Below are positions 320 to 50,698 of a stretch of 64,000 nt of DNA, in pieces. Both the position numbers and the translations under genes were made by a program. Each line of letters begins with the position of its first letter. Positions within the stretch are counted from its first letter, which is position 1. This DNA comes from Nitrososphaerota archaeon (GTDB lineage: Archaea; Thermoproteota; Nitrososphaeria; Nitrososphaerales; Nitrosopumilaceae), in the NCBI GenBank assembly GCA_013287585.1, contig JABDDN010000001.1, forward strand, positions 1 through 64,000, written 5' to 3'. The notes below the pieces were generated by a model. It saw only the letters and a list, made by a program, of their open reading frames with translations. It was not told the origin of the DNA and did no database searches.

Positions 320-1933
320 ATGAAACTTGGATTAATTTTACTAATCTCAATTACAGGAATAATACTGACAATTTCACTACCTCACGCTTATTCTCAATTA
401 GTATCAGATAACAAGTATCTATTACAAGCCACCGGCTTTGTAGTAGGAACTCAAACCATTCAAAGTTCCGAGATTGATTTACAGTTTTCAACAGGTACTT
501 TGAACAATGGTAACACTCCGGTAACACTAGAAAATGGTTTAGTTTCCATTTCTGGCAATAATTATCTTAATTCTGGAACTTGGACTACAACACTATTGCG
601 TAATGGGCAATTTATAGTGGTTACAGGCGATGCCCAGAATTCAATCGGTAACACAATTCATGTTAACATATTTGGGAGACTGGTTCAAACAAGTCAAGAA
701 GGCTCAGTTTATTACTTTACAGGAAAAATAACTGGCACAACCGAACCATTTCAAGTTGCTTTTAGTGCAAAAATAACCTCAACGATTTCTAACGTTACTC
801 CAACACCAACTACACCAACGCAAACTCCAACACAAAATCAGGGAAATATAGTCCAAATAAGCATTGTATCAGGTTCATCTAGTCCTTATAACCAAAATTA
901 TTTTTCACCATCTTCCATACCAGTCACACCCGGTACAACAATTGTCTGGACAAACAATGACTCTGTACCACACCAAATTGAAAGTGGAATTATATCAACA
1001 TCAACAACAAATGCAAAAGGCTCATTTTCTCCAGATGGACAAATTACTAGTCCTGTTATTGCACCAGGACATACATTTCAATACACAGTAAATAATGTTG
1101 GAACTATAACATTCTATGATCCTTCATATTTGTGGATGTCAGGTGCCATAACCTCAAAACCAGTAACCACACAAATGAAGACAACCCAAATTTCAATATT
1201 ACAAGGAGCATCAACCATGAAGTCAGGACAAGTTCTTTCTCCTCCTTCTATACAAATCACCCCTGGTACTACTATTGTCTGGACAAACAACGACTCTGTA
1301 CCACACAAACTTCTTAGTGGAATCTTATCTACAACAACACAAGGGCAGAGGGGATATGCCAACCCAACAGCAAATACACCTTCATTTCAACCAGATGGAC
1401 AAATTAACAGTGGTACCATTGCACCAGGACAGACATTTCAATACACGATGAATCGTATAGGTACCATAACATTCTACGATCCTTCATACACATGGATTAA
1501 TGGTGTAATCTCATCAATTTCACAAATATCAACACAGAGTAAACCCATTCAAATAAGCATACAACCAGGTTCATATCAACCTCAAGGTTCTGCATCACAA
1601 CAAAATCAACTTTATACCAATTACTATTACTTACCAACTGATCTACAAATCATACCTGGCACTACTATTGTCTGGACAAACAATGATACAGTATCTCACA
1701 GAGTTCTTAGTGGAATAAGTACACAAAAAATAGGAAATACTTTCACACCAGATGGAAATTTTGACAGTGGTCCTCTTGCACCAGGACAATCATTTCAATT
1801 TACAATAAACAATGTGGGAATCATCAGGTTTTATGATCCATCATATACATGGATGAATGGAGTTATAGTTTCAATTCCTGCTTCCTCTTCACAGATTATA
1901 GGAGCTCCATACCATAATCCTGGGCTTCACTAA
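320..1933 (+). CDS. Secreted protein with three cupredoxin-like repeats lacking the copper Cys
   Basis: A signal peptide covers residues 1-25. An extracellular beta-rich domain (about 32-160) and a Thr/Pro linker (about 162-176) follow. Then come three homologous modules at about 178-280, 287-400 and 410-518. Each has PGTTIVWTNND followed by a His (VPH, VPH, VSH), an APGxxFQ segment and FYDPSY(L/T)W(M/I). That is the layout of plastocyanin-type cupredoxins, but the usual Cys-x-x-His-Pro-x-x-Met end is replaced by Asp-Pro-Ser-Tyr. Cys and the second His are absent in all three modules and Met is Ile in module 2. A type 1 copper site is therefore unlikely. Function is unknown, probably cell-surface or exported; no C-terminal anchor is seen. 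Confidence 0.8.
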   Translation: MKLGLILLISITGIILTISLPHAYSQLVSDNKYLLQATGFVVGTQTIQSSEIDLQFSTGTLNNGNTPVTLENGLVSISGNNYLNSGTWTTTLLRNGQFIVVTGDAQNSIGNTIHVNIFGRLVQTSQEGSVYYFTGKITGTTEPFQVAFSAKITSTISNVTPTPTTPTQTPTQNQGNIVQISIVSGSSSPYNQNYFSPSSIPVTPGTTIVWTNNDSVPHQIESGIISTSTTNAKGSFSPDGQITSPVIAPGHTFQYTVNNVGTITFYDPSYLWMSGAITSKPVTTQMKTTQISILQGASTMKSGQVLSPPSIQITPGTTIVWTNNDSVPHKLLSGILSTTTQGQRGYANPTANTPSFQPDGQINSGTIAPGQTFQYTMNRIGTITFYDPSYTWINGVISSISQISTQSKPIQISIQPGSYQPQGSASQQNQLYTNYYYLPTDLQIIPGTTIVWTNNDTVSHRVLSGISTQKIGNTFTPDGNFDSGPLAPGQSFQFTINNVGIIRFYDPSYTWMNGVIVSIPASSSQIIGAPYHNPGLH

Positions 1934-1956
1934 ACTAAATCAAAAGCAAAATTATT

Positions 1957-2658
1957 TTATTTAAAATTAATATATGATTCAAGTTTTGTTTGATCAAAAA
2001 CCATTACTGAAAGATCTGAAAACTGTTTTCCTTCCAAATCTTTAACCACACCGACAAACGAGGTTTCTTTTTCTGTAGTTAAAAATTCAAAAACATGAAC
2101 TTTCATTTTTGAGGTATCAAATCCATGATCTTTTAAATAGAAAGCAATTTCAGACTGCATAAAATGTTTTGAAGGATCTTTAGGCCATGGTCTTGGTACA
2201 AGCACCACACTATATTCATCTAATAATGCCTTTTGTAGTTCGATCTTTTTTTCTTCAATACTTGTAGTTATGTGCATGGTGATTACTTTGCTTTTATCAA
2301 GAGGCACCCTTGCTTTTGATGCTGCAACCTGAATAGAACTAATACCAGGAATTATTTGCACATTTCCAAAAATTTCAATTAGTCTGTCTACAACTTCGGA
2401 TTCAGAGAAATTCACATCACCAGTAAATGGAACAACTAATGTCTTATCACCCAATGTTTTTGCAATTTTCTGATAGGTTTCTTCTTGGTCTTGCATGTTT
2501 ATTTCATACACTTCTTTATTGACCAAAAGTCGCTCAATTGTTTTAAGTGTGTATTTGTATCCAACCACGATATCAGAATATAGTATTATTTCTTTTACAA
2601 CATCAGTTATGTATCTAGGAGATCCAGGACCCACTCCTACCGCATAAACTTCTCCCAT
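1957..2658 (-). CDS. cbiE: Cobalt-precorrin-7 (C5)-methyltransferase
   Basis: The 233-residue protein starts with MGEVYAVGVGPGSPRYIT, the SAM-binding GxGPG loop of tetrapyrrole methylases. A second conserved stretch, VVPFTGDVNFSES, precedes IIPGISSIQVAASK, the typical order in CbiE/CobL-N. It would methylate C5 of the corrin ring in cobalamin synthesis. No CbiT is fused or adjacent, so the decarboxylating partner must lie elsewhere. CobJ (19.1 kb) and BluB (30 kb) are other cobalamin genes in the window. It converges with the upstream secreted-protein gene. CbiE is preferred over other methylases of this fold, though not proven. Confidence 0.85.
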   Translation of the reverse strand: MGEVYAVGVGPGSPRYITDVVKEIILYSDIVVGYKYTLKTIERLLVNKEVYEINMQDQEETYQKIAKTLGDKTLVVPFTGDVNFSESEVVDRLIEIFGNVQIIPGISSIQVAASKARVPLDKSKVITMHITTSIEEKKIELQKALLDEYSVVLVPRPWPKDPSKHFMQSEIAFYLKDHGFDTSKMKVHVFEFLTTEKETSFVGVVKDLEGKQFSDLSVMVFDQTKLESYINFK

Positions 2659-2744
2659 GTGTTTGTTTTTTCAATGTCGTAATATAATCTACAAAATCTT
2701 AATTTTACAATTGGCTTTTATTATGAGGTTGACGAATTCAGTTA

Positions 2745-3437
2745 TTGCGTTTTAACTTACTTGCACCAAGCATTTGTTTTCTTCTTTTTGTAAGCTTGAC
2801 ACCTCAAATATTTGCAAGTTCCAATTCTACAGAGGAAACAGGAAATTACATTAATCAACTATTAGGATTCTCTTTTCATCCACCAGATAATTGGACAGCA
2901 CAAGAATTAAAAAAGATACAACCAAATGCACCTGATGTTGCTATAGTTGGTACAAAGGTAGATGGATTCGCACCAGCTATCTCGGTTTCTGTCGAGAATT
3001 CAAACGGAACTTCACTTGAAGAACATGTAAAAGATCAGAAAGTACGGCTTCAACCTGCAGTTGATGCTGGTAGATTGATTTTCCTATCTGATGAAACCAA
3101 AAAAATCAATGGTTATGATACCGAAATCTCAGAATCAAAAGGTGAATTTTTATCTCAAAATCAAGGATTTATAATTAAATTTAAAGAAGCTATCATATCA
3201 ACAAATGACAAATTCTATACAATTACTTATGCAAATCAAGAAAAACATTTTGATGATGATTTACAAAACTTTGATGACGTCTTAAACTCCTTTCAAATAA
3301 TTTCCAATAAAACAAATGAATCATCCATTAACCTCACATTTGAAATTGGTATAGGTATAGCAATTGCAATAGGTGTAGTTGTGGCGATTTTAATCAAAAA
3401 AAATCTTTTAAAAAAGAATTACAAAACTCTTGAATGA
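2745..3437 (+). CDS. Membrane-anchored PsbP-like protein
   Basis: TTG at 2745 opens the frame; the nearby ATG at 2723 runs into a stop in another frame. Residues 1-25 form a signal peptide. The body has a YINQLLGFSFHPPDNW motif typical of PsbP/DcrB-fold lipoprotein-like domains, which often begin with a line about natural-sequence surface proteins (GFSFxxPxxW). A single hydrophobic helix near 200-222 followed by Lys-rich residues suggests a C-terminal membrane anchor with the domain outside. The substrate or role is unknown. It lies divergent from cbiE and converges on the NDH-2 gene. Confidence 0.65.
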   Translation: MRFNLLAPSICFLLFVSLTPQIFASSNSTEETGNYINQLLGFSFHPPDNWTAQELKKIQPNAPDVAIVGTKVDGFAPAISVSVENSNGTSLEEHVKDQKVRLQPAVDAGRLIFLSDETKKINGYDTEISESKGEFLSQNQGFIIKFKEAIISTNDKFYTITYANQEKHFDDDLQNFDDVLNSFQIISNKTNESSINLTFEIGIGIAIAIGVVVAILIKKNLLKKNYKTLE

Positions 3438-3445
3438 TTCTCTTT

Positions 3446-4804
3446 TTACCAAACATCATCAACTTCATCAAGCTCCTTGTATTCTACAGGTAATTCACGT
3501 CTGAAGATTTTCAATCTGGATATGTCTCTGTCAAAGAGTAGATCTATAGTCCAATCAAGAAAAATCCTTACGCGTTTATCAAGTCTTGGAATTTTAGAAA
3601 GATAGACAGTCCTCCAAATCCACCATGCTACAAAACCATGTAAATGTAATCCAAATATGGTGGCAATAGCTGATCTCTTTCCTATTATTGCCATCTGACC
3701 TCTTGAAGAAAATTCAAATTTTCTTTTTTGTTTATTTTTTATTATGGCTTGTAAATTATATGCTGCAATTTTTGCTCCAGCTTCTGCGCTTTGTGCAGTT
3801 GGGGGATATGGTCTATTGGTTTGTGGATTTAGTAAATAACAACAATCTCCAATGGCAAAAACTTCTGGAAAATCTGGAGCTTCCAAAAATTCGTTTACAA
3901 CAATTCCTCCCCTATTTGTCTTAAAGACAGATTTTTTTATTATATCAACTGGGGTAATACCTGCAGTCCAAACCAAAGTTCTTGTCTGAATTGATTCTAT
4001 TACAGGTTGGCTTGCTGGAGTTTTATTTGGATCAACTACATCTTCTATTATTACCTCAGAACCGGAAAAACTTGAAAGTTTCTTGCCAAGTTTAACCTCT
4101 ATCCCATGCTGTGTTAGTTTTTCTAGTGTAAATCTAGCTAACTTTTCATTAAATCCTGGTAAAATAAACGAGGCTGCTTCTAAAACAATTACCCTGATAT
4201 CTTCTTTTTTTATATTTGGATAATATTTTCTCGCATCTTGTACAAAGTCATTTAATTCACCAGCTGTTTCAATTCCTGCAAATCCACCTCCAACTATTAC
4301 AAGGGTAAGCAAACTTTTCTTAAGGATTGGATCGCTTTCATTTTCTGCTTGTTCTAACGTATCTATTATTCTATTTCGTAAAACTACTGCATCGTTTAAT
4401 GTCTTCATGGAATATGCCCTCTCCTCCATTTTATCAATTCCAAAAAAGTTTGTTTGACTTCCTAATGCAAGAACAAGAAAATCATAATGTAAAGAGATAC
4501 CGCGTCGTTCGTTAGTTCCAGTAAGAGTTACAATCTTTCCATAAGGATCAATATTTTTGATTTGAGCTTCATAAAATATGGTTTTTTTACACAGAGTCCT
4601 AATTGGTATCACAACATGTCGTGTCTCAATCATCCCTGATGCTACTTGAGGAAGCATGGGAGTGAAAAGAAGAAAATTGTCTTCACTTACTAGAACGATT
4701 TCAATATCGGTATCATTCATAAAATATGACTCTAATTTTCGCATACATTCTACTCCGGCAAACCCGCCACCTAAAATCAGAATTCTTTTCTTTCCTTCAG
4801 ACAT
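3446..4804 (-). CDS. Type II NADH dehydrogenase-like FAD oxidoreductase
   Basis: The 452-residue protein has an N-terminal dinucleotide fold ILGGGFAGVECMRKLE (FAD) and a second one, LVIVGGGFAGIETAGEL, near residue 165 (NADH). Motifs LALGSQTNFFGI and VFAIGDCCYL are characteristic of NDH-2/Ndh. The C-terminal third is basic and amphipathic (FVAWWIWRTVYLSKIPRL), fitting peripheral attachment to the inner face of the membrane. It would pass electrons from NAD(P)H to quinone without pumping protons. Sulfide:quinone reductase is the main alternative, but the redox Cys pair of that family is not evident. It stands as a single gene. Confidence 0.85.
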   Translation of the reverse strand: MSEGKKRILILGGGFAGVECMRKLESYFMNDTDIEIVLVSEDNFLLFTPMLPQVASGMIETRHVVIPIRTLCKKTIFYEAQIKNIDPYGKIVTLTGTNERRGISLHYDFLVLALGSQTNFFGIDKMEERAYSMKTLNDAVVLRNRIIDTLEQAENESDPILKKSLLTLVIVGGGFAGIETAGELNDFVQDARKYYPNIKKEDIRVIVLEAASFILPGFNEKLARFTLEKLTQHGIEVKLGKKLSSFSGSEVIIEDVVDPNKTPASQPVIESIQTRTLVWTAGITPVDIIKKSVFKTNRGGIVVNEFLEAPDFPEVFAIGDCCYLLNPQTNRPYPPTAQSAEAGAKIAAYNLQAIIKNKQKRKFEFSSRGQMAIIGKRSAIATIFGLHLHGFVAWWIWRTVYLSKIPRLDKRVRIFLDWTIDLLFDRDISRLKIFRRELPVEYKELDEVDDVW

Positions 4805-4921
4805 TTACATTTAAACCTAATTTGCCGGTTATATCCTATGGGTCTGATTATCAAATACACCCTCATTAAAATAAAAATACTAAGGCGAACAATAAAATAT
4901 CATAAAAACTGGTAATATTAT

Positions 4922-5242
4922 ATGAAGAAAGAGTACGTAGTAGTTCGTATTGATGCTGCTCCTGATGGTGCACCATACGTGGTAGTTTCTCTTTCATCAC
5001 CTAAGGATTTTAGAGAACAAAACCAGTCAATGTCTCCTTTCGGTTCAAATGTTATGGGTTTTACGAATATGGATGACATGGTAAAAGGCCTTAACAAAAT
5101 GATGTCTGGGGGGGGAATGTTTGGTCAGGCAGGGGGGATTACTTCAATTAAACTAGATATGCGTGAATACAAAGAACTTGGACTTTCGGTAGGAGATAAT
5201 GTCTTTTTAGAAATTTCAAAGCCAGAATCTCTTGGAGTCTAA
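4922..5242 (+). CDS. Conserved hypothetical protein, 106 aa
   Basis: The function is not recognised. The ATG at 4922 begins a small acidic-to-neutral protein with an ordered N-terminal beta region (YVVVRIDAAPDGAPYVVVSL), a flexible Met/Gly-rich middle (MSGGGMFGQAGG) and a second beta segment ending VGDNVFLEISK. No membrane helix or metal motif is seen. An AT-rich element (aataaaatatcataaa) about 30 bases upstream is a plausible promoter, leaving a very short leader. It converges with the ACT-like gene downstream. Confidence 0.6.
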   Translation: MKKEYVVVRIDAAPDGAPYVVVSLSSPKDFREQNQSMSPFGSNVMGFTNMDDMVKGLNKMMSGGGMFGQAGGITSIKLDMREYKELGLSVGDNVFLEISKPESLGV

Positions 5243-5291
5243 AAATATCTTCTATCTTTTATATTTAAAATTTAACTAGATATGCCAAGCA

Positions 5292-5951
5292 CTATCTTGA
5301 AATCTCAGAGCGCAAAATTTCATAGGCTCTGGCAGCATCTTTCTCCTTTAGTACAACAATAATATCATCTTGGCCAAAAAAGGCATTTACAAGTTCTATT
5401 CCATTACTGTGTAGTATTTCAGATACGTAAGAAACTATATCAGATCCACTTTGAGATTCTGGAACACGTATGCTGATTTTTGCTAATCCTGTTTGAAAAT
5501 TATTTTTCTGAAATGGGAATGATTCTAAAAGTTTTCTTACATCCAATATGTCTTCAGTTAAAACTCTAAATGAATCTGTGAATCTAAAAAATTCGTAATC
5601 GGGATCTATCTGTGTAAATTTATCCATAAGCGTAGCAGTGTCATTTGCCCCAAATTCATCAGTGGAAAATTTGATATCTGCAATTCCATCGGTTAATGAA
5701 AGTCTGGCATTTTTTAAAACAGATTCTTGTTGAACTACATCCTTTTTCTCAAATGAATCTGCATATCTTTTGATTGCAACAACAATGGTGTTCAGGTTTA
5801 CAGGACCAATTTGTGCTTCTACGTCCTTTTGGATCTTTACGGCAAGAGCTGTGTAGTTTATCAAATCCATCTTTATACAATCAAAAATTGAACGGTTCCT
5901 AGTGATAATTTCACGTACAGCATCGGGGACAGAAACATTTGCAGTCTTCAA
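5292..5951 (-). CDS. ACT-like domain protein, function unknown
   Basis: TTG at 5951 is the start. Residues 1-140 are helical with no recognised motif (begins MKTANVSVPDAVREIITRNR). The last 70 residues (LAKISIRVPESQSGSDIVSYV... NAFFGQDDIIVVLKEKDAARAY) look like the beta-alpha-beta-beta fold of ACT domains. ACT domains bind amino acids or other small ligands and regulate enzymes or transcription; the ligand here is unknown. The N-terminal DAVREIITRN could be a winged-helix start, which would make this a regulator, but that is inference. It is divergent from the Hsp20 promoter. Confidence 0.6.
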   Translation of the reverse strand: MKTANVSVPDAVREIITRNRSIFDCIKMDLINYTALAVKIQKDVEAQIGPVNLNTIVVAIKRYADSFEKKDVVQQESVLKNARLSLTDGIADIKFSTDEFGANDTATLMDKFTQIDPDYEFFRFTDSFRVLTEDILDVRKLLESFPFQKNNFQTGLAKISIRVPESQSGSDIVSYVSEILHSNGIELVNAFFGQDDIIVVLKEKDAARAYEILRSEISR

Positions 5952-6016
5952 ACACAGATAATATAAATTGTCATATATAATAGTCTTATGTAAGAATTAT
6001 GGTTATACTCCAAAAA

Positions 6017-6056
6017 ACTATATATAGTGTAATGTATATTACATTATATAAGTGAT
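6017..6056 (+). promoter_or_regulatory. Promoter with palindromic operator and SD ahead of Hsp20-CDC48
   Basis: A TATA-like run (ctatatata, about 6019-6027) is followed directly by a perfect inverted repeat at 6030-6046: TAATGTA, spacer TAT, TACATTA. The repeat sits where the transcription start should fall (about 25 bases after the TATA box), so a bound dimer would block initiation. A GTGAT ribosome site at 6052-6056 stands six bases before the ATG at 6063. A heat- or stress-controlled repressor is a reasonable inference; the factor is unknown. Confidence 0.6.
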
Positions 6057-6062
6057 TATGAC

Positions 6063-6563
6063 ATGTTCCTAAACGATGAATTCGACAATCTCTTCAGAAG
6101 AATGTCTCGACCATTCATGAATATAGACGATATATTCGAAGAGTTCAAGGATTCAGGCAACCTCCAGACCCATGGTCCATACTATTATGGTTATACCATG
6201 ACAATTGGGCCAGATGGTAAACCAGTTGTAAAAGAATATGGAAATGTAAAACCAGCACTTCTACCAACATCAGAAGTCAGAGAACCTTTTGTTGACGTTC
6301 TAGTTGATGACAAAGAAAAGGTTCTGAAACTTGTAGCTGAAATGCCAGGTGTAGAAAAGAAAGACATCAAGATCGTAGTTGAAGGACACACAGTAAATCT
6401 TGATGCAGAACATGGTGAGAAAAAATACAGTACTAAAGTCCCTATAAGACAAAAGGTAGATGAGGATTCTGTAAAGGCAACATATGCTAACGGAATTCTT
6501 GAAGTAAGATTCAAACTGAAAGAAGATGAAAAACTAAAAGGAAAAACTGTGGAGGTTGAATAA
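6063..6563 (+). CDS. Small heat shock protein, Hsp20/alpha-crystallin family
   Basis: The 166-residue protein has an N-terminal arm (FLNDEFDNLFRRMSRPF), typical of sHsp, and an alpha-crystallin domain from about 75 to 160. The motif YANGILEVRFKL matches the conserved A-x-x-x-G-x-L signature. It should hold unfolding proteins in oligomers. The start is ATG 6063, chosen because the ATG at 6058 stops at once. The CDC48 ATPase begins 31 bases after its stop, suggesting a stress-related operon. A second, shorter Hsp20 lies at 59.1 kb. Confidence 0.92.
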   Translation: MFLNDEFDNLFRRMSRPFMNIDDIFEEFKDSGNLQTHGPYYYGYTMTIGPDGKPVVKEYGNVKPALLPTSEVREPFVDVLVDDKEKVLKLVAEMPGVEKKDIKIVVEGHTVNLDAEHGEKKYSTKVPIRQKVDEDSVKATYANGILEVRFKLKEDEKLKGKTVEVE

Positions 6564-6594
6564 ATCCACCCCCATTTTTTATGGTGATTAAATT

Positions 6595-8730
6595 ATGAGC
6601 GAAATAATATTAAAAATAGCAGAAATTTCACAACGCCATGTAGGCAAGGGCATTGCCCTAGTAGACCCAAAAATAATTGAGGATAACAACTGGGAAGTTG
6701 GCCAAGTTTTAGAAATCATTGGTAATAGAAAAAGTCATGTGAAGTTATGGCCCGGTTCTCCAGAAGATTATGGTACTGGAATCATAAAGATTGATGGACT
6801 AACACGACATAACATTGATGCTGGCATAAATGACAAAGCATCTGTCAAAAGAGTAGATGCAAAAGAAGCAGAACAAGTGGTTCTATCACCAATTGAAAAA
6901 TTAAGTGAAGAAGGATTACAAGAATATATGCAAGTAAACTATGATGGTCATGTCTTAACAAATGGAGATACACTTATTGTAATGACACATCTTGGAGCTA
7001 GAACTCAATTGATTGTAACAGGTACTACTCCATCTGCAAAACCTGTCATAATAACTGAACAAACTAAATTCAAGCTAGGCAGTATGACTAAGGCAATTGA
7101 TCACAGCATCCCACGAATTACGTATGACGAGTTAGGAGGACTAAAGAAAGAAGTTCAAAAGATACGCGAAATGGTAGAGCTTCCAATGAGACATCCTGAA
7201 TTATTTGAAAAATTAGGTGTGGAAGCACCAAAAGGAGTATTGTTGTATGGTCCTCCTGGTACAGGAAAGACACTTTTAGCAAAAGCAGTGGCTGGCGAAA
7301 CAAACTCTCATTTCATTTCGCTTAGTGGACCAGAAATTATTGGGAAATACTATGGGGAAAGCGAAGAGCGACTACGTGACATCTTCAAGCAAGCTGAAGA
7401 GGGTGCCCCAAGTATAATATTCATTGACGAAATTGATTCGATTGCTCCAAAAAGAGAAGAAGTTACTGGTGAAGTAGAAAAAAGAGTAGTTTCGCAATTA
7501 TTGACTCTAATGGATGGAATGAAATCAAGAGGTAAGGTCATTGTTATTGCAGCAACAAATAGGCCAGATTCACTTGATCCTGCAATAAGAAGACCAGGAA
7601 GATTTGATCGTGAAATTGAGATTGGAATACCAGACGAAGCAGGTAGAAAAGAAATTTTGGATATTCATACACGTGGTATGCCTCTTAATGACAAAGTCAA
7701 CTTAGATCAAATTGCAAAAGTAACACATGGATTTGTTGGTGCCGATTTAGAAATGCTTGCAAAAGAGGCGGCAATGAGATCATTACGAAGAATCTTACCT
7801 GAATTAGATCTTGAAGAAGAAAAAATTCCAGCAAAAATTTTACAAAAAATTGTGATTACGGATGATGACTTTAAAGATGCAATAAAAGAAGTAAGACCAT
7901 CTGCATTAAGAGAAGTACTAGTTCAAGTTCCAAATGTCACATGGGATGATGTTGGAGGATTAGAGTCACTTAAGGAAGAATTACACGAAGCTGTTGAATG
8001 GCCACTAAAATACAAAGAGGCATTTGAGTATACGGGAGTTACTTCTCCAAAAGGAATTTTGTTATATGGTCCACCAGGTACGGGGAAAACATTGATTGCA
8101 AAAGCCCTTGCACATACTACAGAGTCTAACTTTATCAGCATTAAAGGCCCAGAGCTTTTATCAAAATGGGTAGGAGAATCTGAAAAAGGAGTGCGTGAGA
8201 TTTTCAGAAAAGCAAGACAGGCTGCCCCATGTATAATATTCTTAGATGAAATAGACGCAATAGCACCTGCCAGGGGTTCTGGAAGCTCGGACTCGCATGT
8301 TACAGAAAGAGTAGTCTCACAAATTCTAACAGAAATTGACGGTCTTGAAGAATTGCATAATGTGTTAGTGATTGGTGCTACCAATAGAGTAGACATTGTT
8401 GATCCTGCGTTATTGCGGCCAGGTAGATTTGATAGAATAATTGAAGTGCCATTACCAGATTCAAAAGGACGTGAAAATGTCTTCAAGATTCATACCAAGA
8501 AAAAACCTCTAGCAGAAAACGTGAATTTGATAAAACTTGTGGAAATGACAGAGGGATTTAGCGGAGCAGAAATTGAGGGTGTTTGTAGTAGAGCAGCAAT
8601 AACTGCAATAAAGCGATATGTAGACAACAAAGAGAAATCAGTCAAATCCATAAAGATTACGCAAGAAGATCTACTACACGCAATTAAAAAACTAAGACCA
8701 GAAAAAACTTCTATGCATGCAGTGACGTGA
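6595..8730 (+). CDS. cdc48: CDC48/VCP-type double AAA ATPase
   Basis: The 711-residue protein has the CDC48 N domain (residues 1-180), then two AAA modules. Each has a Walker A GPPGTGKT (near 218 and 491) and Walker B-like acidic motifs ([24 protein letters not shown]) plus [17 protein letters not shown] and [17 protein letters not shown] second-region-of-homology stretches. It unfolds or extracts proteins, feeding the proteasome in archaea. A GGTGAT ribosome site at 6583-6588, six bases before the ATG, supports translation as a second cistron after Hsp20. The length is slightly short of bacterial/eukaryotic relatives but normal for archaea. Confidence 0.96.
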
Positions 8731-29911: not shown

Positions 29912-30004
29912 CGGGCTCGGAGGGCTTCGATCCCTCGACCTGTAACTTAGGAGGCTACTGCGCTATCCATGTTGCGCGTCAATAAGACTCTGCGCTACGA
30001 GCCC
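29912..30004 (-). tRNA. tRNA-Arg (anticodon CCT) with an intron in the D-loop
   Basis: Read on the minus strand, the gene folds as a full tRNA: acceptor GGGCTCG/CGAGCCC, D-stem GCGC/GCGC, anticodon stem GTAGC/GTTAC with loop CTCCTAA (anticodon CCT), T-stem GAGGG/CCCTC. The D-loop holds 28 bases instead of about 10. An 18-base intron at 29972-29989 fits. After removal, the D-loop reads AGCATGGATA, a normal archaeal form. The mature length is 75 bases. The T-loop starts with A instead of the usual T. Confidence 0.88.
29972..29989 (-). other. D-loop tRNA intron with bulge-helix-bulge motif
   Basis: The D-stem 5' GCGC can pair with the GCGC near the intron's 3' end, giving a four-base central helix. 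A three-base bulge AGA lies on the 5' side and AAC on the 3' side; a GTC/GAC stem with loop TTATT closes it. This is the canonical bulge-helix-bulge recognised by archaeal tRNA splicing endonuclease, cutting after the second bulge base on each side (between tRNA positions 15 and 34 of the precursor). Non-canonical intron positions are known in Thaumarchaeota and Thermoproteales. Confidence 0.75.
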
Positions 30005-30826: not shown

Positions 30827-30900
30827 GGGCCGATCGTCTAGTTGGTTAGGATACCGCCCTGACACGGCGGTGGTCGAGAGTTCAAATCTCTCTCGGCCCA
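30827..30900 (+). tRNA. tRNA-Val (anticodon GAC)
   Basis: The 74-base gene folds fully: acceptor GGGCCGA/TCGGCCC with discriminator A, D-arm with GGTTAGGATA, anticodon stem CCGCC/GGCGG with loop CTGACAC (anticodon GAC), T-arm GAGAG/CTCTC with loop TTCAAAT. No intron is seen. CCA is not encoded. It lies between bluB (divergent) and the PNPOx-like gene that starts 36 bases later. Confidence 0.96.
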
Positions 30901-47095: not shown

Positions 47096-48733
47096 ATGAA
47101 ATTTAATCAATTTTTTGTCCTTATTACTGTCTTTATTGTTATGACTGGAATTTGGGCTATTGCACCAAGTGTTGCTCATGCAATGACACCAATTCCAACA
47201 AAAACACCAACGGATCTAACTGCTACAGCAGTCTCTCCAACTCAGATCAACCTTTCATGGAATGCACCAACACAAAACTATGGAAAAACTATCATTGGTT
47301 ACAAAATTGAACAAAGATTAAGCGTTGGTAACTATTTTACATTAGTAGCAAACACAAACAGAATAATTACTACGTATTCTCTGACTGGATTGACAACTGA
47401 TACTACTTACACTTATAGAATATCAGCAGTTTACTCTGATGATTCTAGTACAGATCCCTCAACTGCAGCATCTGCAACTCCAACCATAACATCTACACCT
47501 CCACCAACTCCGTCACTTACATCACCAATTACAAACGTAAAATTTGACTTTATACCGTCTGATGGAACTACATTAACAGCTGTTATAATAACACAAAGTG
47601 ATTATCAGCAATTACAATACGAAAAAAATTCTAGAAGTGTAATCTCTAATGCGTCACCAACAACAGAAACAATAACTAATGATTTGGCTGGAATTCTAAT
47701 ATACCAGAATTATCATTTAAGTCCAGCTTCAGTACCTGGACCGCTTATGGCAAAAGCAGTCTCTCCAACTCAGATCAATCTTTCTTGGCTTCCACCACTA
47801 GAGAACTACGCACAAAAAATAATTGGTTATAAAATAGACTTGAAACGAGCTCCAGGCGACTATGTCATAATAGATGACAATACAGGTAATGACACTACAA
47901 AATATTCATTAGTGGGTCTGAAGACTGGCACTACTTACACTTACAGGGTAGCAGCCATTTATTCTGATCATACTACTAGTAATACATCAAACGAAGCTTC
48001 AGCAATTACACTCCAATCATTACAGCCTATACCTCAACCTACACCTCCACCAACTCCAATACCTTCACAACCTACACCAATACCACAACCTGTAATGAAT
48101 GTGAAATTTGATTTTATAGCATCTGATGGAACCACATTAACATCTGTCATATTGACACAAAATGATTATCAACAATTCATAGTCATAAAAGATCCTAGAA
48201 GTATAATTTCTAATGTAACAGAAACAACAAATACTATAAACAATAACCTGTCAGGTCTTATTAGATATCAAACAATTCATTCTACTCAAACTACATCTCC
48301 ACAACAGACATACAACTATACTCCACCAACTCCAAATAACACCAGTAGTCCTAATATTGGACTATTATGGGGCGTAGCTACATCAGTAATAGCATCTGGA
48401 GTAATAGGTATCATAACTTGGCTTGTTAAAACAAAAATTGCAAAAAAAATAGCAAAAGAATACTACTTTACATTAGAAAAGATAATTGAAGATGGAACTC
48501 TGCATATAAGAATTAGAAACAGTAGTCAGACAATAGAAGATTGTATTATCTTATGTGCTGGAGTGGCATGTGTTTGGACTGACACAAAAATAGATAAACC
48601 AAGGCACGTCTATGAGGGCAGTATTTCTGTAGTCAAATTGCCTGATGAATTTGGAAATAATCCGTTGATTAGTGTCAAGAGTGGCAAGAAAGTTCTAAAA
48701 AAGACTCAACTTGATGATATGGCTCATGGTTAA
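47096..48733 (+). CDS. Secreted FN3-repeat protein with a C-terminal membrane helix and cytoplasmic tail
   Basis: A signal peptide (NQFFVLITVFIVMTGIWAIAPS) precedes two fibronectin type III domains (about 38-129 and 215-306), each starting with AVSPTQINLSW. Each is followed by a repeat of KFDFI(P/A)SDGTTLT(A/S)VI(I/L)TQ(S/N)DYQQ (about 149-206, 336-395). A membrane helix (about 422-445, GLLWGVATSVIASGVIGIIT) leads to a 100-residue cytoplasmic tail. Proline-rich linkers separate the modules. The extracellular FN3 units suggest adhesion or binding; the tail could signal. Confidence 0.75.
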   Translation: MKFNQFFVLITVFIVMTGIWAIAPSVAHAMTPIPTKTPTDLTATAVSPTQINLSWNAPTQNYGKTIIGYKIEQRLSVGNYFTLVANTNRIITTYSLTGLTTDTTYTYRISAVYSDDSSTDPSTAASATPTITSTPPPTPSLTSPITNVKFDFIPSDGTTLTAVIITQSDYQQLQYEKNSRSVISNASPTTETITNDLAGILIYQNYHLSPASVPGPLMAKAVSPTQINLSWLPPLENYAQKIIGYKIDLKRAPGDYVIIDDNTGNDTTKYSLVGLKTGTTYTYRVAAIYSDHTTSNTSNEASAITLQSLQPIPQPTPPPTPIPSQPTPIPQPVMNVKFDFIASDGTTLTSVILTQNDYQQFIVIKDPRSIISNVTETTNTINNNLSGLIRYQTIHSTQTTSPQQTYNYTPPTPNNTSSPNIGLLWGVATSVIASGVIGIITWLVKTKIAKKIAKEYYFTLEKIIEDGTLHIRIRNSSQTIEDCIILCAGVACVWTDTKIDKPRHVYEGSISVVKLPDEFGNNPLISVKSGKKVLKKTQLDDMAHG

Positions 48734-48772: not shown

Positions 48773-49444
48773 TTATGCGTTTCTGTTCAACTTTCCATCT
48801 TTGTTGAATAAGCTCTGGACTTTTGCATCTGCAAGATTGTATTTGACATTCAAGTCCTTGTTGATGCTTATCAGTTGATCTTTGTGGACTGTAGCTTCAT
48901 TATTGTATGCCTGCAAAGCCTCTTGCATAGTACCACCATTTCTAAGCACTTGACTCATTGCATTTCTTGCATTCTGGATCTTTTGTTGCATGAAATTAAA
49001 TTGATCCCAGAAAAGACTCTGTGCAGAGTTGTCTACATGTGTTACAAAACCAGCATATGCATTTTTCGGAACAGTTAGATCATTTCCATTATTCATACCA
49101 GCAAGATCATTTTGTAAATATGCATTTGCAATTTTACGTTGTTGCTCTATGAACTGGTTTTGTTGATCTACTATTTGTTGTTTTTGTTGTATTGCAGCAT
49201 ATCTTTGTTTGAATAATTCTATGTTTTCAAGAATTTTCATATCTGTCGGATTGTTTTTTATGGCATCTGTAGCTAATATTGTATTGGTGTTACTTGCTCC
49301 AGTATCAGCCCAAGCAAATCCAAAATTTGTTACAACTATTAGCACCGCAAAAACACTTGCAAAAACACATAGTTGACTTGTCTTATGCATTTTCTTACTC
49401 TTGTCATCATTTTGCATTTCTTTATTTTCTATGGTTTCAATCAT
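48773..49444 (-). CDS. Secreted coiled-coil protein, ribozyme-led
   Basis: ATG 49444 starts 223 residues. An 18-residue lead precedes a signal helix (LCVFASVFAVLIVVTNFGFAWA). The mature part is helical and Gln-rich (RYAAIQQKQQIVDQQNQF... LVRN). ELFKQRYAAIQQKQQIVDQQ marks a coiled coil. A ribosome site (GAGGTGA) lies seven bases before the ATG, and a hammerhead ribozyme ends directly upstream. After ribozyme cutting, the mRNA would start 27 bases before the ATG. Function is unknown. Confidence 0.7.
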   Translation of the reverse strand: MIETIENKEMQNDDKSKKMHKTSQLCVFASVFAVLIVVTNFGFAWADTGASNTNTILATDAIKNNPTDMKILENIELFKQRYAAIQQKQQIVDQQNQFIEQQRKIANAYLQNDLAGMNNGNDLTVPKNAYAGFVTHVDNSAQSLFWDQFNFMQQKIQNARNAMSQVLRNGGTMQEALQAYNNEATVHKDQLISINKDLNVKYNLADAKVQSLFNKDGKLNRNA

Positions 49445-49451
49445 TCTATTT

Positions 49452-49458
49452 TCACCTC
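49452..49458 (-). promoter_or_regulatory. Shine-Dalgarno site after the ribozyme
   Basis: GAGGTGA on the minus strand complements the conserved 3' end of 16S rRNA and lies seven bases before ATG 49444. It falls within the 27-base leader left after ribozyme cleavage, so translation can start on the cut RNA without the upstream cistron. Confidence 0.75.
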
Positions 49459-49467
49459 ACTGGTTTC

Positions 49468-49518
49468 TCCCGACAACCGAACGTTGTTTCGTCCGAGTTT
49501 CACGGACTCATCAGGGGA
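49468..49518 (-). ncRNA. Type I hammerhead ribozyme
   Basis: On the minus strand all core parts are present in order. Stem I UCCC (49515-49518), CUGAUGA (49508-49514), stem II GUCCG/CGGAC (49503-49507 with 49491-49495; loop UGAAACU), GAAA (49487-49490), stem III ACAAC/GUUGU with loop GUUCG (A15.1-U16.1 pair included), then C17 at 49472 and stem I GGGA (49468-49471). Every core base matches the family consensus. The predicted cut is between 49472 and 49471. Stem I is only four pairs. Stem III is closed, so it is type I. It lies between two same-strand genes. Confidence 0.93.
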
Positions 49519-49538
49519 TTGTTTGTATTCTCCTGTTA

Positions 49539-49775
49539 TCATAAGGACCGTAGCACTACTTCCAGCACATTTATCAAACCGTTCTTAACATCGTCTCGAA
49601 GGATTGTGCGGATGATTTTGTGATATTTGTTACCACATCCTTCAGAGTGTAAGAGCAGATGTCTATTGCAAAAGGCACATCCACAAGTCACACATAGTTT
49701 TGTACAGTTTTGTGAACATATGTGGCATTGCGATTTTTCAATGCGTTCAATTGTTGGTATTGATGTCATGGCCAC
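49539..49775 (-). CDS. Small B-box-like zinc-finger protein, 78 aa
   Basis: ATG 49775 starts MAMTSIPTIERIEKSQCHIC. Cys and His residues (Cys17, Cys20, Cys24, Cys28, Cys31, Cys33, Cys36, His39, His43, Cys47) follow a Cys-x2-Cys-x7-Cys-x2-Cys-x4-Cys-x2-His-x3-His layout that resembles B-box or HIT-like zinc fingers. The C-terminal 28 residues are an amphipathic helix (KIIRTILRDDVKNGLINVLEVV). It ends 20 bases before the hammerhead ribozyme and is likely on the same primary transcript as the downstream secreted protein. Confidence 0.7.
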   Translation of the reverse strand: MAMTSIPTIERIEKSQCHICSQNCTKLCVTCGCAFCNRHLLLHSEGCGNKYHKIIRTILRDDVKNGLINVLEVVLRSL

Positions 49776-49930: not shown

Positions 49931-50698
49931 ATGAGTATGGTAGGTAGGAATACAGATAGTTCTGACAATGTAATACCTGTGAAAAACATGACCAAGAACG
50001 GGATAAGTCCTCTTGACTTACTTATTCTTCATGTATTACAAAGTGGTGCGACTCCTGATACAGCAAACAAGGATCTTGAAAAATACGGCTATGTTCTTTC
50101 ACGTGATAATGTTAAAAATAGAGTAGATGAACTCATAAAAAAAGGCGTTATTTTAGAACACAACAACGAAGAAGACAGTAAGAAAGATGACAAAATAAAG
50201 TGGATTCTAGTAGATCCAAGTAAATTATTTGATAACCAATGGTATACTTTCATAAAATCACAGAATCCGCTTTTTGAACGAAGAGTAATTCCGTACTCTG
50301 AGATGTATAGTAATTTAGTCGAAATAAGTAGAGAATATGGTGTAGTGACAGCGATAGACCTTGTTCAGGGAGAAGGTCAAAATTATGATTTTATCCTAAG
50401 AATTGCTACAAATGAGCTAACTCTTTTTGAAGAATTTATAGAAAAAATCAGGTCACTTGGATGGGTTCATTCAGTTGATAGTAAACCCATTCACGTACTT
50501 GAAGGCGTAGGGCTATCCAAAAATAGTCTGACCAAAGTGCATACGAATTATTTTTACGAACCGATAAAAATTCCTGACTTTGAAACGTATTTGAAGAGTA
50601 TAAAACAAGTATTTCGTACTTATGATACTTACATAAAAGAAGAAGGCTCTTCAAAACAAAAAATTGCCAGAAAAAAAGACAGTGATGATGTTGCTTGA
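49931..50698 (+). CDS. Winged-helix and Lrp-like regulator
   Basis: ATG 49931 leads to 255 residues. Residues 20-95 have a winged-helix look (SPLDLLILHVLQSGATPDTANKDLEKYG ... RVDELIKKGVILEHN). The middle (VVTAIDLVQGEGQNYDFILRIATNEL, FIEKIRSLGWVHSVDSKPIHV) resembles an Lrp-type ligand domain, so a two-domain regulator is likely. The end is basic. It faces the zinc-finger-ribozyme locus across two operator-like repeats and precedes a methyltransferase gene by 7 bases. Confidence 0.6.
   Translation: MSMVGRNTDSSDNVIPVKNMTKNGISPLDLLILHVLQSGATPDTANKDLEKYGYVLSRDNVKNRVDELIKKGVILEHNNEEDSKKDDKIKWILVDPSKLFDNQWYTFIKSQNPLFERRVIPYSEMYSNLVEISREYGVVTAIDLVQGEGQNYDFILRIATNELTLFEEFIEKIRSLGWVHSVDSKPIHVLEGVGLSKNSLTKVHTNYFYEPIKIPDFETYLKSIKQVFRTYDTYIKEEGSSKQKIARKKDSDDVA

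Follow-up and report, generated by a model that had tools for sequence, protein, structure and literature searches.

A phage-type hammerhead ribozyme in a conserved gene spacer of Nitrosopumilaceae archaea and its putative role in processing a two-gene mRNA

Type I hammerhead ribozymes of prokaryotes and phages have been described as intergenic elements with an open stem I, closed stems II and III, a consensus core and a cleavage site at C17 (Perreault et al. 2011, PMC3088659; PMC6155905). Palindromic stems III that would permit dimers have also been noted (Perreault et al., PMC3088659). In archaea, at least three hammerheads are known, plus type II forms (Perreault et al. 2011, PMC3088659), and a computational survey of hammerheads in archaeal genomes exists, judging by its title (Gupta and Swati). 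The hammerhead of the haloviruses HF1/HF2 (HHphage, PMC3088659) is likewise archaeal and lies within a polycistronic transcript, shortly before a start codon. The function of prokaryotic hammerheads has been called an open question (PMC6155905), because most of them sit in phages or in scattered places. The ribozyme that we describe here has the same architecture, core, cleavage site and intergenic location as the prokaryotic and phage type I forms; unlike them, it is a single chromosomal copy, found at the same place in two archaeal genera, and it belongs to a host gene module and not to a phage or a repeat element. Its core is canonical and its location chromosomal, whereas HHphage has insertions near C3. 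The literature that was searched in full text gave no report of this locus.

The window, by which we mean the whole stretch of 64,000 nucleotides that was analysed (positions 1 to 64,000 of contig JABDDN010000001.1, assembly GCA_013287585.1, from a Nitrososphaerota archaeon of the Nitrosopumilaceae, of the ammonia-oxidising type and from soil or groundwater), carries on its minus strand, at 49468-49518, a complete type I hammerhead ribozyme in which every core element can be read directly. From 49518 down to 49468, this strand successively presents the 5' half of stem I (UCCC, 49518-49515); the core segment C3-A9 (CUGAUGA, 49514-49508); stem II (GUCCG, 49507-49503, paired with CGGAC, 49495-49491), closed by loop II (UGAAACU, 49502-49496); the core segment GAAA (49490-49487, A15.1 being 49487); stem III (CAAC, 49486-49483, and GUUG, 49477-49474, joined by the loop GUUCG); U16.1 (49473); C17 (49472); and the 3' half of stem I (GGGA, 49471-49468). 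The core thus follows the type I formula, CUGANGA and GAAA with an A15.1-U16.1 pair, and is surrounded by three helices, stem I being open and stems II and III closed by their loops, while position 17, where H and not G is expected, is a C. From its position relative to the core, cleavage is predicted between C17 (49472) and G1.1 (49471). The sequence-only reading of this DNA, which had announced a complete type I hammerhead at 49468-49518, was correct base for base and in all its coordinates. It had also judged chance to be very unlikely, and this is borne out by an unconstrained motif search that required the core together with stems of any sequence able to pair: on both strands of the window it hit a single site, and 25.6 Mb of window sequence shuffled by a first-order Markov model gave no hit; thermodynamic z-scores are uninformative for so short a motif. 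The 5-bp stem II and a loop II of the form UGARANN are shared with the viral copies that we found. The extent matched by our covariance models R1, R2 and R3 (49463..49524, minus strand) includes A-rich flanks of stem I, which may, as far as the letters go, provide a candidate contact between stem I and loop II. These flanks are A-rich as in the viral copies, with ACA in the window versus (U/C)AA as the commonest form in the subtype.

An exact match to the family consensus had been claimed, and this holds for the catalytic core but not for the Rfam models overall (18.9-21.2 bits, below gathering). At gathering cut-offs, Rfam gives no match at the site: RF00008 (Hammerhead_3) reaches 21.2 bits against a gathering cut-off of 48.5, and RF00163 (Hammerhead_1) 18.9 bits against 34. 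These two are the best-scoring known families and have the same core and three-stem topology as the window ribozyme. RF03152 (RAGATH-1) lies far below its cut-off, so that the site is not a member by that test; it matches an orthologue (L018) and phage copies at sub-threshold level (25.4 bits against 56.3). The curated cut-offs of all three families are missed at the window site. The Rfam 15 gathering cut-offs also miss clear bacterial, viral and archaeal hammerheads (L096, L109, L143, L078 and others). Since clear phage copies fail them too, the low score of the window reflects the models and is not evidence against the ribozyme; RF00163 and RF00008 appear to be tuned to other hammerheads. 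For the same reason, a check by the Rfam hammerhead models, as initially proposed, would be misleading if used alone. We built R1 from five loci (that of the window, those of three genomes of the same genus and that of one genome of another genus), and R3 from 88 bacterial and viral copies, without any archaeal genome sequence. R3 gives the window 65.2 bits (E = 3.9e-18), its second-best match reaching 14.5 bits, and the other orthologues 56.0-65.6 bits. Its 88 rows were gathered with R2, which included the window; the sequences that make up R3 are themselves independent, but their selection and alignment are less than fully so. Some weaker matches were set aside: an RF00163 match in genome G017 (L010) reads like chance and has no R3 match, and R1 matches of at most 26.8 bits (L040-L044, L047), without a proper core, were excluded from the conclusions. 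RF00163 matches also occur in G033 and G032. Elsewhere in the window, a borderline tRNA match (29920-29977, minus strand; 29.3 bits against a cut-off of 29, covering model positions 10-63 only) lies near a clear tRNA at 30827-30900 and could be an intron-containing or degenerate tRNA.

A DNA search of relatives found the locus in three more genomes of the same genus and in one genome of another genus of the family. When 250 genomes of the family were searched with R1, 24 strong copies were obtained (E 3.0e-27 to 1.4e-15; next match 8.5e-5), all confined to two genera, with one copy per genome at the orthologous place. The carriers are four of the five genomes of the window's genus, into which MAG TA_20 (VBPW01000014.1) falls by a pattern scan of named genomes, and 20 of the 37 genomes of Ca. 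Nitrosotalea, including Ca. Nitrosotalea devanaterra (LN890280), whose site is at G011:C1:1192031-1192087. The core of the 24 orthologues varies at two positions only, position 7 (N7: U, A or C) and position 17 (H17: C or A, never G), the hammerhead positions that tolerate change. The helices show compensatory changes, GUCCG/CGGAC becoming GUUCG/CGAAC or GUCUG/CAGAC in stem II, and CAAC/GUUG becoming CAAU/AUUG in stem III, and loop III differs freely between copies, in length as well as in sequence. When 41 members from archaea, bacteria and viruses are aligned, 98.9% of the pair cells do pair; the covariation score is 0.641, where shuffles give 0.165 and slid controls no more than 0.125, values to be read with the facts that the alignments were fitted to the model and so lean towards structure, and that the inner three pairs of stem II were left free in the search pattern. 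Another alignment held six chance-like rows, and the 41-member count is cleaner. Stem III is very short in several Nitrosotalea copies (CAAUAUUG or CAACAUUG), and these copies may be slow to cut as monomers; the ones with a short palindromic stem III (CAAUAUUG) can be likened, by analogy, to hammerheads that are active as dimers. Anatomy, out-of-sample covariance score, compensatory changes and conservation at an orthologous site in 24 genomes together uphold the initial claim of a type I hammerhead located between two protein genes of an archaeal genome. We conclude that a genuine type I hammerhead ribozyme of the prokaryotic (phage) type occupies the site, its self-cleavage being predicted on sequence grounds.

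The two genes that border the ribozyme lie on the same strand. Upstream is an ORF of 78 aa (49539..49775, minus strand), Cys/His-rich and zinc-finger-like, whose stop precedes stem I by 20 nt and which has no Pfam or NCBIfam match. Downstream, a Shine-Dalgarno sequence (GAGGUGA, 49452..49458, minus strand; GGAGGUGA in most relatives), carried by the predicted downstream cleavage product, precedes an ORF of 223 aa (48773..49444, minus strand) with a signal-peptide-like N-terminus followed by a Gln-rich region, probably a coiled-coil, and with no family above cut-off in Pfam or NCBIfam. A divergent winged-helix regulator ORF (255 aa, 49931..50698, plus strand) and a convergent secreted fibronectin-III protein (545 aa, 47096..48733, plus strand) complete the neighbourhood. 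The order formed by the stop of the Cys-rich ORF, a gap of 6-23 nt, the ribozyme, the Shine-Dalgarno sequence and the start of the secreted-protein ORF is fully visible in 22 of the 24 loci, where the Cys/His-rich ORF is complete (about 75-78 aa, some called longer). The two exceptions are L027, which starts too near the ribozyme for this ORF to be visible, and L031, which carries only a 58-aa fragment of the Cys-rich ORF. In all 24 loci, a Shine-Dalgarno sequence comes after the ribozyme and the start codon of the secreted-protein ORF lies 19-30 nt past the predicted cleavage, and each of the 24 ribozyme genomes has a close orthologue of the secreted protein (E 3.9e-139 to 9.9e-62; next relatives 1.5e-54 and weaker). 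Within Nitrosotalea, the Cys-rich ORF occurs in 19 of the 37 genomes, every one ribozyme-bearing, the divergent regulator likewise in 19 of 37, and the fibronectin-III surface protein in the 20 ribozyme-bearing genomes and two others, one by a weak match only. At the cut-offs used, the 17 ribozyme-free Nitrosotalea genomes have no regulator, no Cys-rich ORF and no orthologue of the secreted protein; hence, ribozyme, ORFs and regulator look like a module that is acquired or lost as a unit. More broadly, relatives of the secreted protein (48773-49444) exist in 168 of the 250 family genomes, and it is akin to a region inside ORFs of about 800-1200 aa in Nitrosotalea (G011:C1:1092300-1092806 is an example of a paralogue).

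Viral contigs hold hammerheads with the same loop II (UGARANN) in at least 120 stretches, and several bacteria and further archaeal MAGs have them too. The subtype is rare in these archaea: in a sample of 398 genomes drawn from the whole phylum, R2 has matches at E <= 0.001 in ten, which belong to five genera. For the 129 matches with enough flank, a same-strand ORF ends at -10 to 30 nt of stem I in 60% (10% at random positions), a start codon lies within 40 nt downstream in 70% (35% at random positions), and both are found in 47% (3.6% at random positions), a count that mixes lineages and close relatives and describes the set, with no significance test. The statement that such ribozymes are rarely located between two protein genes is therefore wrong for this subtype. 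Seven or eight hammerheads each are found in the viral contigs L143, L116 and L105, and one viral contig carries eight copies between small ORFs. In L143 (IMGVR_UViG_3300041956_000313; 1331-6899, plus strand), most of the copies begin where one small ORF ends, or close to it, and lie ahead of the start of the next, as though to divide an operon into short messages. In Bathyarchaeota MAGs BA_9, BA_21 and BA_25 (L067, L076/L046, L079, L086), the same subtype lies a few nt past the stop of a secreted pilin-like ORF, these ORFs being related and about 154-164 aa long, and BA_25 has two copies on one contig (L086). In Thaumarchaeota / Bathyarchaeota MAGs (L053, L062, L089), single hammerheads of the subtype separate two ORFs with the appearance of secreted or membrane-anchored proteins. 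Archaeal copies of the subtype may favour cell-surface gene pairs. Current Rfam cut-offs miss this large prokaryotic and viral subtype, and a new model for the UGARANN-loop form would find many hammerheads.

We consider it likely that this vertically kept ribozyme cuts a two-gene mRNA in its spacer. This reading is based on the anatomy, subtype, conservation, covariation, position and co-occurrence that are seen, from which we infer co-transcription, cleavage in the cell and an effect on expression. The short spacer and the conserved order suggest a single transcript for both ORFs, which would comprise the ORF of the small Cys-rich protein, the ribozyme spacer and the ORF of the secreted protein. 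The sense transcript would cut itself between 49472 and 49471, releasing upstream the RNA of the Cys-rich ORF, ending in a 2',3'-cyclic phosphate, and downstream the mRNA of the secreted protein, which would keep an intact Shine-Dalgarno sequence and have its 5'-OH end 27 nt ahead of the AUG. The most likely role would be to uncouple the two cistrons after transcription, giving them separate stability and translation. Against this reading stand the competing folds described below, the very short stem III of several Nitrosotalea copies and the ACA flank of stem I in the window. The ribozyme could also be active on another transcript, if the downstream gene had its own promoter inside the Cys-rich ORF; it would then trim the 5' UTR of a one-gene mRNA, whose lifetime would be altered by the 5'-OH. 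Such trimming agrees with the leader of 19-30 nt that cleavage would leave, sparing the Shine-Dalgarno sequence in 24 of 24 loci, and with the halovirus hammerhead, located 13 nt upstream of a helicase gene and having a mapped 5' end near the cleavage site (PMC3088659). We nevertheless hold it to be rather unlikely: in every locus with intact upstream sequence, ribozyme and Cys-rich ORF have been retained together, the stop of the latter lying 6-23 nt before the ribozyme, and the subtype usually sits between two ORFs.

The fixed synteny with the same genes also argues against a mere relic of an inserted virus or mobile element without host role. We regard such an origin as very improbable, even with the abundance of the subtype in viral contigs (at least 120 loci) and the frequent proximity of prokaryotic hammerheads to prophage genes (PMC3088659): the ribozyme is kept, with compensatory changes, over a divergence across which a neighbouring protein is only 53% identical, and the adjacent predicted proteins have no phage character in Pfam or NCBIfam. 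Hardly credible, finally, is a conserved structured leader, either a protein-binding site or a C/D-type RNA, that would resemble a hammerhead and not cut. It could draw on the scores below the Rfam cut-offs, on the likeness of UGAUGA to a C box and on competing folds, the minimum-energy fold of a longer window RNA differing from the hammerhead, which lies 0.3-5.1 kcal/mol above the minimum across orthologues in an energy model without tertiary contacts. However, the core varies only at N7 and H17, the latter never being G, which is what a hammerhead requires, and R3, made from bacterial and viral hammerheads, picks up the site out of sample. A C/D-box RNA as such was rejected, as the sequence has no matching D box or C'/D' arrangement.

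Returning to the cutting of a two-gene mRNA, we lean on balance towards a wider proposal, namely that a viral-type hammerhead has been fixed as the operon-processing part of a host module in archaea of the ammonia-oxidising type, that its vertical inheritance goes back beyond the split between Nitrosotalea and the window's genus, and that it sets the relative output of the Cys-rich and secreted proteins. This kind of ribozyme is itself known; what makes the present one interesting is that its position within a host gene module is fixed. If the proposal is true, the ribozyme would join a very small group of cellular prokaryotic hammerheads whose host context is defined and conserved. With one copy per genome, in the same spacer and beside the same genes in 24 genomes, it offers a direct way of testing what a cellular archaeal hammerhead does.
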